Below are positions 18,954-21,085 of a stretch of DNA of 59,971 nucleotides, in pieces (position 1 is the stretch's first letter; every line of letters begins with the position of its first letter). Below the pieces are notes generated by a model. It was not told the origin of the DNA. It was given only the letters and a program-made list of their open reading frames with translations, and did not search any database. The position numbers and the translations under genes are program-made. The stretch comes from Pedosphaera parvula Ellin514 (GTDB lineage: Bacteria > Verrucomicrobiota > Verrucomicrobiia > Limisphaerales > Pedosphaeraceae). The stretch lies in contig NZ_ABOX02000046.1 in the NCBI RefSeq assembly GCF_000172555.1, positions 1 through 59,971 of the forward strand, read 5' to 3'.

Positions 18954-19075
18954 GATCTCATGAAGAGTGGTTGAGGGACTGGCCCTACGAAACCACGGCA
19001 ACCGGCTGGGACGCGATTTCCAGTGCAGGTGCCAAGTCCAGCTCGAGCACCATTAGCTCGGGGAAAAATGAGAAG
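18954..19075 (+). promoter_or_regulatory. SAM-I (S-box) riboswitch aptamer
   Basis: The stretch has the core of the SAM-I family in order. The P1 5' strand TCTCAT is at 18956-18961. The GAAGAGTGG...GAGGGACTGGCCC block of P2 with its kink-turn starts near 18961. ACGAAACCACGGCAACC lies around 18987-19003. GGTGCCAAGTCC (P3/P4 side) is at about 19028-19039. The P1 3' strand ATGAGA is at 19068-19073. SAM binding stabilises P1. The riboswitch class is known to repress methionine, cysteine and SAM genes. It lies 80 bases upstream of the ThrC-like gene. Confidence 0.9.
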
Positions 19076-19095
19076 AGCAGTCGCGATTTTGTCTC

Positions 19096-19125
19096 CTCTT
19101 CTCTCCACATGGGAAGGGGTTTTTT
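19096..19125 (+). terminator. Riboswitch expression platform (conditional terminator)
   Basis: CTTCTCTCC (19098-19106) can pair, with G-U pairs and one mismatch, with GGGAAGGGG (19111-19119), and six T's follow. The competing antiterminator is GAGAAGAG (19070-19077), which contains the 3' side of P1, pairing with CTCTTCTC (19096-19103). With SAM bound, P1 holds the GAGAAG strand and the terminator forms. Confidence 0.7.
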
Positions 19126-19156
19126 ATTCCCCACAAACAAACGCGATCAGAAGATT

Positions 19157-20418
19157 ATGGACAAACACGATGGTTTCATGAAGGCACTCAAGTGCCGCGA
19201 GTGCGGACGCGAATACCCCCTCACCGCCACTCACGTCTGCGAATTTGATTTCGGCCCGCTCGAAGTCGCCTACGACTATGACCGCATCAAAAAATCCCTC
19301 ACCAAATCCGCAATCGCCTCCCGCCCTCAATCCATGTGGCGTTACCGCGAGTGCTCCCCGTCGCCAGTGACCCCACAGTTGGTGTCAAGGTTGGCTTCAC
19401 GCCATTGATCAAGGCCGATCGTCTCGCCAAGCGCCTCGGCATCCGTGAACTCTGGATCAAGAACGATACCGTCAACTATCCCACTCTCTCTTTCAAGGAC
19501 CGCGTGGTCAGTGTTGCTCTCAGTCGCGCTCGCGAACTCGGTTTCACTACTGTCGCCTGTGCCTCCACCGGCAATCTCGCCAATTCCGTCGCCGCCAATG
19601 CCGCCTCGGCCGGCCTCAAGTCCTACGTCTTCATTCCCTCCGACCTTGAACAGGGCAAGATCGTCAACTCCCTTGTCTACGGTGCAAATGTTATCGCCAT
19701 CAAGGGCCACTACGATGAGGTCAATCGTCTCTGCGCCGAAATCGCCGGCAAATTCGGCTGGGCCTTCGTCAACGTCAATATGCGCCCGTACTACGCTGAA
19801 GGTTCCAAGAGCATGGGCTACGAAATCGCTGAACAATTGGGCTGGCAAATCCCGCAACATACCGTCGTCCCCATGGCCTCGGGTTCACTGCTCACCAAGA
19901 TTCACAAGAGCTTTCAGGAACTCACCAAGCTCGGCCTCGTCTCCGAATCCGCTTACAAGGTTCATGGCGCCCAAGCCACCGGTTGCTCGCCCATTTCTGT
20001 CGCGCAAAAAGCCGGCCTCGACTTCTTCAAGCCGGTCAAGCCAAACACCATCGCCAAGTCGCTATCCATCGGCACTCCTGCCGACGGCTTCTACGCCCTC
20101 CGCGTCATGAAGGAAACCGGCGCTGCTTGCGATGATGTCACCGATGACGAAATCCGCGAAGGCATCAAACTCCTCGCCGAATACGAAGGAATCTTCACCG
20201 AAACCGCTGGTGGTGTCACCGTTGGTGTCGCAAAAAAACTCATCGCCGCCGGCAAAATTCCGGCCAACGACTCCGCTGTACTCTGTATTACCGGCAATGG
20301 TCTCAAGACCCTCGACGCCGTCGTCGGCCATGTCGGCAACACGCGCGAAATCAAGCCGAGCCTGCGCGAATTTGAAACCTTGCTTGCCAATGAAAATTTG
20401 TCCACTGTAACCACATAA
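19157..20418 (+). CDS. thrC: Threonine-synthase-family PLP enzyme (frameshifted), SAM-riboswitch controlled
   Basis: The protein, about 420 aa if repaired, is a fold-type II PLP enzyme of the ThrC family. An N-terminal zinc-ribbon-like part has Cys13, Cys16 and Cys28. The PLP lysine lies in LSFKDRVVSV (Lys114 in the repaired protein) and the phosphate loop in GSLLTKIHKS. The first 65 codons are in another frame from the rest. Restoring one C before 19352 turns YREC into YRELLPVASD and joins them. Family members usually convert O-phosphohomoserine to threonine. The SAM riboswitch and the sulfur-carrier partner suggest homocysteine formation instead. The next gene starts four bases later. Confidence 0.85.
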
Positions 20419-20422
20419 GCTT

Positions 20423-20698
20423 ATGGCTAAAAAAGTTCGCATCCCCACTCCTTTGCGCAAGCTGACCAACAACGAGGAACTCGTTGAAGTCGACGCTGCC
20501 ACCATCGGTGCCGCGTTCGCTGAATTGCAGACCAAATTTCCTGGCATCAAGGAACGCTTGATTGATGAAAGTGGCGAAGTCCGTCGCTTCGTCAACGTCT
20601 ACGTCAACGAGGAAGATATCCGCTTCCTTCAAAACCAGCAAACCCCGCTCAAAGATGGCGATGAGATCAGCATCATCCCCGCCATCGCCGGAGGCTAG
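20423..20698 (+). CDS. MoaD/ThiS-family sulfur-carrier protein
   Basis: This 91-aa β-grasp protein ends in IIPAIAGG, the exposed Gly-Gly that is thiocarboxylated in sulfur carriers. The N-terminus VRIPTPLRKLTNN and the middle KDGDEISIIPA match MoaD-like carriers such as CysO. It is tightly packed with the ThrC-like gene (4 bases) and the NIL gene (17 bases). No activating E1 (MoeB/ThiF) or JAMM protease is in the window, so these would have to come from elsewhere. Likely role: sulfide donor to the neighbouring PLP enzyme. Confidence 0.9.
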   Translation: MAKKVRIPTPLRKLTNNEELVEVDAATIGAAFAELQTKFPGIKERLIDESGEVRRFVNVYVNEEDIRFLQNQQTPLKDGDEISIIPAIAGG

Positions 20699-20715
20699 CT
20701 CAACCTTTCTATTCC

Positions 20716-21012
20716 ATGGCAGCCAAAACCAAAAAGACAGCGCCCGTCAAAGCTTCTCCTGGCAACGGTCAGGACCAGACTCGCTTGTGGCTCATGTACC
20801 CGCCCAAGCTCATCAAGGAACCGCTCATCTGGCAGCTCAGCCAAAAGTTTCCGGTCGTCACCAACATTCGTCAGTGCAGCGTCACTGATGAAATTGGCAT
20901 CGTCAGCCTCGAACTGAGCGGCCAACGCGCCGATATCAAAGCTGCCATCAAGTGGCTCGAAAAAATCGGTGTCAGTGTCGAACCCGTCGAAATCAACGTC
21001 ATCGAAAGCTAA
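20716..21012 (+). CDS. NIL-domain protein
   Basis: The 98-aa protein has a basic, disordered first 20 residues and then a NIL domain, the ferredoxin-like fold otherwise found at the C-terminus of the methionine importer ATPase MetN (RLWLMYPPKLIKEPLIWQL...VSLELSGQRADIKAAIKWLEKIGV). In MetN this domain binds methionine. Related NIL proteins occur with homocysteine synthesis genes in methanogens. As last gene of the riboswitch operon it may sense methionine or help sulfur transfer. Confidence 0.85.
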   Translation: MAAKTKKTAPVKASPGNGQDQTRLWLMYPPKLIKEPLIWQLSQKFPVVTNIRQCSVTDEIGIVSLELSGQRADIKAAIKWLEKIGVSVEPVEINVIES

Positions 21013-21056: not shown

Positions 21057-21085
21057 AGAGACGGCTTACCACCGTCTCTTCTTCA
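21057..21085 (+). terminator. Terminator of the riboswitch operon
   Basis: An 8-bp stem AGAGACGG (21057-21064) and CCGTCTCT (21072-21079) with a 7-base loop is followed by TCTTCATTT. The remainder of the 347-bp gap to 21359 shows no gene. Confidence 0.75.

Follow-up and report, generated by a model that had tools for sequence, protein, structure and literature searches.

What does a gene that family models assign to threonine synthase do behind an S-adenosylmethionine (SAM) riboswitch, with a sulfur carrier and a NIL-domain protein at its side? The question is raised by an operon on contig NZ_ABOX02000046.1 of Pedosphaera parvula Ellin514, of which positions 1 to 59,971 were analysed (59,971 nucleotides, hereafter the window). 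Read from sequence, the operon very probably makes homocysteine from O-phosphohomoserine and carrier-bound sulfur by the MetM/MetO route, because gene order among relatives, a protein tree, an active-site signature and the complementary distribution of MetX all point that way. This chemistry of a ThrC-fold enzyme fed by a carrier had been put forward in an earlier note on this DNA and is upheld here as the best reading; the note's claim of a distinct methionine route had to be given up, as the operon matches MetM/MetO of Streptomyces albulus, published in 2024 and described at second hand in PMC12172450.

All parts of the operon lie on the forward strand. It opens with a SAM-I (S-box) aptamer at 18955-19074, which matches Rfam RF00162 over its full length (model positions 1-108 of 108) at 75.2 bits (E 7.7e-16), far over the gathering cut-off of 44.4, and which is the sole match to this family in the 7.41-Mb genome. 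A terminator-like hairpin with a 9-pair stem and a TTTTTT tail follows at 19095-19119, and the start codon of the enzyme gene at 19157 lies 82 bases past the aptamer end, which bears out the note's complete aptamer and terminator about 80 bases before a ThrC-like gene. The gene at 19157-20418 (Pfam PALP, TIGR00260) codes for a MetM-type, threonine-synthase-like enzyme dependent on pyridoxal phosphate (PLP). Four bases past it starts a MetO-type sulfur carrier of the MoaD/ThiS/CysO-like kind (20423-20698; Pfam ThiS, 68 bits) that ends in AIAGG, and 17 bases further on a stand-alone NIL-domain protein (20716-21012; Pfam NIL, PF09383, 43.2 bits vs a cut-off of 24); both were found as the note had described them.

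The arrangement recurs among relatives. In a set of 40 genomes (the own genome, one of the same genus, six of the same family and 32 of the same order), the enzyme type was present in 27, 26 of them by genome search and G033 via its locus, and riboswitch, enzyme, carrier and NIL were present together in all 27, so that the neighbourhood sketched in the note holds wherever the enzyme occurs in this set. All 19 aligned rows of the adjoining carrier keep the Gly-Gly end. A wider scan covered the best 80 of at least 578 relatives (named loci, with titles naming Verrucomicrobiota or unassigned bacterial bins); it overlaps the first set (e.g., L091 matches G005:C189, both of 106825 bases), and the two are not independent. 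Here a riboswitch model built from the family itself, with the L170 aptamer included, found the riboswitch at 74 of 80 loci; four of the other six start at or near a contig end, while L106 and L142 do not. The carrier was found at 74 and NIL at 63 of 79 named loci (L091-L169), and a profile search of the other 16 for NIL found none. Six metagenome contigs (L098, L102, L107, L120, L133, L151) are labelled Akkermansia muciniphila in their record titles but carry the operon known from the taxonomic order to which the window belongs, and these labels look doubtful.

The enzyme is related to threonine synthase and at the same time set apart from the other ThrC types. Its body is 79-91% identical to 25 relatives and 87-91% identical to the seven from the same genus or family. 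In a tree of 43 proteins, 23 order-level enzymes, six remoter ones and a protein from the actinomycete Nonomuraea formed one clade (100/100), with ThrC types B, C, and D apart; the Nonomuraea branch is long and its exact placement unsure, and the tree holds no E. coli-type ThrC. The window enzyme groups here with a SAM-regulated actinomycete enzyme and not with other ThrC types. The Nonomuraea locus lies on an 11.85-Mb record filed as a plasmid. Its SAM riboswitch scores 68.7 bits, its enzyme is 55% identical to that of the window, and its carrier, which ends in AGG, is 52% identical; NIL was not found at this locus.

One enzyme alignment covers 23 of the 25 relatives (L035 and L050, which have in-frame stops, and the window enzyme were left out). 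The enzymes share a signature of STGNL, NxRP(Y/F)YAEGSK, and A(S/G)GS. All rows differ from type B, with STGNL vs STGNT, N(M/L/I)RP(Y/F)YAEGSK vs NSINPVRIEGQK, and A(S/G)GS vs GNAG (VGNAGN in type B), and the canonical threonine synthase motifs NSxNPxRxEGQK and PVGNAGN do not occur in enzymes of the window type. The altered positions align with Ser155, Arg160, and Asn188 of Thermus ThrC, residues that bind the substrate phosphate, and the PLP lysine motif SFKDR is retained. A search for solved structures found none of this enzyme type; its six matches are led by an ordinary threonine synthase (195 bits). An AlphaFold model, at a pLDDT of 70, was too poor to be used.

Judged by thresholds of my own, the system takes the place of the acyl-homoserine route. 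Full-length MetX (TIGR01392, at least 349 bits) was found in seven of the 40 relatives, that is in none of the 27 with the enzyme vs seven of the 13 without (Fisher 9e-5, uncorrected), and MetA-type proteins (PF04204) in none of 49 genomes. An even draw of 194 genomes across the phylum gave the enzyme in 10 and MetX in 171, without overlap, or MetX in 0/10 enzyme-bearing vs 171/184 other genomes (Fisher 7e-11, uncorrected for relatedness); the thresholds were above 660 bits for the enzyme (next best 262) and E of at most 1e-60 for MetX, and G160 was scored MetX-negative as it is absent from the listed positives. Weaker MetX matches occur in 12 more relatives, five at 105-109 bits and seven at 20-31 bits. 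Three of the five matches at 105-109 bits, those in G002, G003, and G026, were inspected by eye and rejected as MetX: their frames open with signal-like hydrophobic N-termini and resemble exported alpha/beta hydrolases.

Full-length proteins of the gamma-synthase family PF01053 were found in the seven MetX genomes, the own genome (G000) and G017, and thus in two of the 27 genomes with the enzyme; the other 25 show partial matches of at most 41 bits, some over the Pfam cut-off of 27, which are taken to be other PLP enzymes. For the own genome, the search for metX, metY, and metB proposed in the note had a mixed outcome: full-length MetX was not found, and one full-length PF01053 gene is present. 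This PRK08249-type gene of the cystathionine gamma-synthase family (700 bits) lies at 1495-2673 of L076 (G000:C1), and its neighbours are by eye sulfatase-like and TPR-protein-like and not methionine genes. A PRK08197 member (593 bits) is encoded in this genome as well.

Several points weigh against homocysteine synthesis by this operon. The window enzyme gene is frame-broken, as are three of the other 26, and L114, L115, and L141 lack a carrier behind the enzyme although the sequence runs on for more than 3 kb. The MetX calls rest on the analyst's threshold, since all MetX matches, controls included, fall short of the 500 bits curated as cut-off for the family; five operon genomes (G002, G003, G006, G007, and G026) hold the partial 105-109 bit matches, and the own genome its full-length PF01053 gene. 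Four of the 40 relatives (G010, G011, G023, and G036, with a completeness of 82%, 91%, 75%, and 96%) show neither route, and the genome counts are uncorrected for relatedness. The long-branched Nonomuraea protein stands in for Streptomyces MetM. Finally, Microcystis ThrC, although 51.6% identical to S. albulus MetM, works mainly as a threonine synthase according to excerpts of PMC12172450, and identity of about 51.6% is therefore no proof of function.

In the leader, the RNA parts can be read as a terminator and antiterminator switched by SAM. In 29 of 33 aptamers that were aligned (L222, L230, L233, and L201 were excluded), 12 pairs had changed on both sides with 98.7% paired cells, which exceeds all 500 shuffles, for a structure derived from the same 29-row alignment. 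In the minimum-energy fold of 19040-19160 (z -1.9), GAGAAGAG at 19070-19077 pairs with CTCTTCTC at 19096-19103, and this antiterminator-like helix overlaps aptamer P1 and the terminator stem at once. A simple terminator-like hairpin was seen in 22 of 33 leaders, scanned without a shuffle control; across the window, four terminator-like sites compare with 3.3 expected in shuffles, a count that alone is not significant. SAM binding and switching are predicted: when SAM is low, the antiterminator would form and the operon would be transcribed, while bound SAM would favour the terminator, as extrapolated from the SAM-I family.

MetO is thiocarboxylated, and the Gly-Gly end of the window carrier would be converted to a thiocarboxylate too, a step plausibly catalysed by a ThiF-rhodanese protein from another part of the genome. 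The MetM-type enzyme would draw O-phosphohomoserine from the threonine pathway and eliminate phosphate, and the carrier thiocarboxylate would add at the gamma carbon to give homocysteine, as modelled on MetM/MetO. Threonine itself would come from another ThrC, in the own genome the product of the thrC in what looks like a hom-thrC-lysC operon (hom and lysC were identified by eye).

Two further partners had been named in the note. A candidate E1 is there, the strongest ThiF-family protein of the own genome including a rhodanese domain (the second is C6), and ThiF-family proteins were found in 39 of the 40 relatives, operon present or not; a search of the same 40 found none in G025. A search of the own genome for a JAMM protease of the Mec+ kind found none, the sole PF14464 match, below cut-off, being RadC; JAB matches over cut-off occur in 11 of 40 relatives. 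The carrier profile's best solved match was 3dwg_C (M. tuberculosis antigen cfp10A, E 1.1e-25), known as CysO, and the ThiS/MoaD protein 4n6e_B was also matched. In four relatives the usual carrier gene is preceded by another one, so that two carriers stand in tandem behind the enzyme; the extra genes (L043 5131-5403, L044 5150-5419, L050 5106-5378, and L054 3611-3883) are 50-62% identical to the window carrier and likewise have Gly-Gly ends.

The role of NIL is the least certain step. No NIL besides the gene at 20716-21012 was found in the own genome, and over all genomes scored, NIL was present in 33 of 36 with the enzyme vs two of 13 without (Fisher 8e-7, uncorrected for relatedness). The latter two, G009 and G039, were rejected as exceptions, being contig-edge cases in which the contig ends inside the carrier gene and NIL lies behind it. 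The nearest solved structures by sequence are MetN regulatory domains (E 2.6e-7), and the predicted fold (pLDDT 82) matched 3tuz_H with Z 12.3 and an rmsd of 1.9 over 74 residues, vs a Z of about 9 outside the MetN family. Asn50 is invariant in 26 of 26 sequences and corresponds in the alignment to Asn295 of E. coli MetN, whose N295A variant is reported in excerpts of PMC12357092 to be unable to bind L-Met at the regulatory domain.

Since the NIL protein resembles the methionine-binding domain of MetN and keeps its key Asn, this suggests a methionine-sensing subunit as the most economical reading. The operon context prompts the further guess that it acts on the enzyme: as an accessory, NIL would most likely be a methionine-binding allosteric subunit that adds a second, protein-level feedback. 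The full proposal, in which NIL is a free-standing regulatory subunit that senses methionine for a homocysteine synthase fed by the carrier, with two end-product controls in one operon, is tentative, with chances somewhat short of even. If true, SAM would act on the RNA and methionine on the enzyme, and the ligand domain of a transporter would be reused as a biosynthetic feedback subunit.

NIL could instead be a catalytic partner that transfers or releases sulfur, a role proposed for the DUF39 pathway, since NIL/ferredoxin proteins are required for homocysteine synthesis in Desulfovibrio and methanogens (excerpts of PMC5764234) and NIL accompanies the enzyme so regularly. This is unlikely given that domain scan and alignment found neither a ferredoxin domain nor a conserved Cys in the NIL protein, and given its likeness to MetN regulatory domains, whose ligand Asn it retains. 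NIL was also not found behind the carrier at nine loci with more than 2 kb there (L120, L124, L127, L133, L139, L150, L151, L154, and L158), nor in Nonomuraea; at three of the nine (L120, L133, and L139), the carrier too is read in more than one frame. The note's link of NIL to the methanogen pathway is likewise unsupported, because NIL here is a single MetN-like domain without ferredoxin or conserved Cys and is absent at some loci. By eye, no recurrent third gene was seen at 12 NIL-less loci except between the close pairs L124/L127 and L231/L232. A second lone NIL of 82 aa, 45% identical over the matched part, lies away from the operon in one relative (L243 3148-3396, G007:C586).

A second alternative concerns the window copy alone, which might be a decaying pseudogene. 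The enzyme gene is split over two frames, 19157-19351 and 19354-20418, net one base short of its relatives near 19352; the note was right about the family (PALP and TIGR00260) and overlooked this break. Frame faults occur in four of the 27 enzyme genomes, namely the window, G001 and G024 with in-frame stops, and G033 with a broken frame, and the frame is intact in 23 of 26 other relatives. Decay is nevertheless distinctly improbable: with 87-91% identity the enzyme body stays close to the seven relatives from its genus or family, the other parts (riboswitch, carrier, and NIL) are intact, and the thrC between the apparent hom and lysC in the same assembly is likewise split, into three frames (L033 1523-2505), which points to base-level errors. 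Because of this second split thrC, the break near 19352 is probably an assembly error rather than decay.

Within the homocysteine reading, the enzyme could use O-phosphohomoserine and free sulfide, with the carrier serving another process. Five of 79 named loci (L091-L169) show no carrier in the available flank behind the enzyme, in agreement with a profile search; two of these end within about 600 bases of the enzyme gene, and L114, L115, and L141 extend further. The carrier follows the enzyme in 27/27 relatives and in Nonomuraea, however, and it resembles CysO, known to feed a PLP enzyme, which makes free sulfide a very doubtful source.

Equally doubtful is that the enzyme is a SAM-regulated threonine synthase that shares O-phosphohomoserine between branches. 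Its score of 270 bits against the thrC equivalog cut-off of 167 would fit, as would the Microcystis precedent in PMC12172450 and three of 27 genomes (G005, G025, and G033) for which no other place over the thrC cut-off is listed. Against it stand a second such place in the other 24, the altered active-site positions, the lack of overlap with full-length MetX, and the conserved carrier partner; the note had looked to a second thrC, and the own genome's lies between the apparent hom and lysC. Cysteine synthesis from O-phosphoserine and the carrier in the manner of CysM/CysO, to which the carrier's best solved match (cfp10A, that of CysO) would point, is the least probable of all, as the enzyme is of the ThrC and not the CysM family, the riboswitch is of the SAM kind, the complementarity is with MetX, and the JAB-like match is RadC.

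A few observations touch the surroundings of these loci. A terminator-like hairpin after the NIL gene (21057-21079, forward strand), found by a consensus scan only, may mark the operon end. The RNA-family search excluded, among others, L065, L067-L072, L226, and L227, and searched L091-L169 only with model R1; it gave Acido-Lenti-1 RNA matches near the ThrC-type loci of two relatives (L036 2727-2772 and 2874-2918, and L060 596-641). Two loci from 0.9-Mb genomes, L231 and L232 (G096 and G075), keep enzyme and carrier with RNase P RNA nearby, and neither a SAM riboswitch nor NIL was found at them.

Homocysteine synthesis by this operon would offer a possible explanation of how methionine is made in a large, mostly uncultured group without full-length MetX or MetA and mostly without a PF01053 gamma-synthase. 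Family models call the key enzyme threonine synthase, and such organisms may therefore be misjudged as methionine auxotrophs. Independent genomic evidence extends the pathway of 2024 to a further phylum, and a testable role is offered for stand-alone NIL proteins. The additions made here are the MetX complementarity across Verrucomicrobiota and the conserved NIL accessory, the latter possibly new: no paper joining NIL with MetM was found in the open-licence literature, and Hasebe et al. (2024) might mention NIL.

How, then, does the operon compare with known systems? In CysM/CysO of Mycobacterium tuberculosis, a PLP enzyme is fed by a carrier thiocarboxylate, and CysO is the closest solved relative of the window carrier; the PLP family and the product are different, and the protease of the Mec+ type was not found in the own genome. 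The methionine route of Wolinella succinogenes uses MetY of the PF01053 family, whereas 25 of the 27 relatives with the enzyme have no full-length protein of that family. A protein thiocarboxylate is the sulfur source for homocysteine in that route too (Krishnamoorthy and Begley, 2011, as cited in excerpts of PMC5764234). The same source describes a homocysteine route of DUF39, NIL/ferredoxin, and COG2122 proteins in Desulfovibrio and methanogens, which shares the involvement of a NIL domain; DUF39/HcyBio (PF01837) was found in none of the 40 genomes, and NIL stands alone here, without ferredoxin. With the C2/NIL domain of the methionine ABC importer MetN, the window protein shares the fold and the Asn needed for L-Met binding, but it is not fused to an ATPase and sits in a biosynthetic operon.

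The closest likeness is to MetM/MetO of Streptomyces. MetM of S. albulus is a ThrC-like homocysteine synthase that converts O-phosphohomoserine to homocysteine, with an upstream SAM riboswitch and a sulfur-carrier gene (Hasebe et al., 2024, Appl Environ Microbiol 90:e01247-24, as cited in excerpts of PMC12172450), and the Nonomuraea locus of equal layout clusters with the window enzyme. The verrucomicrobial operons differ in that they mostly add NIL and in that the enzyme is about 55% identical to that of Nonomuraea. MetM homologues also exist in cyanobacteria: in Microcystis, thrC has a neighbour that is similar to S. albulus metO and bears the annotation of a sulfur carrier, but by the excerpted account Microcystis ThrC is not fully a MetM in the cell, and sulfide gave just an unidentified peak near methionine (PMC12172450). 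Microcystis is without the riboswitch, and the window operon, which bears one, is nearer to the S. albulus layout and is placed with the S. albulus kind.

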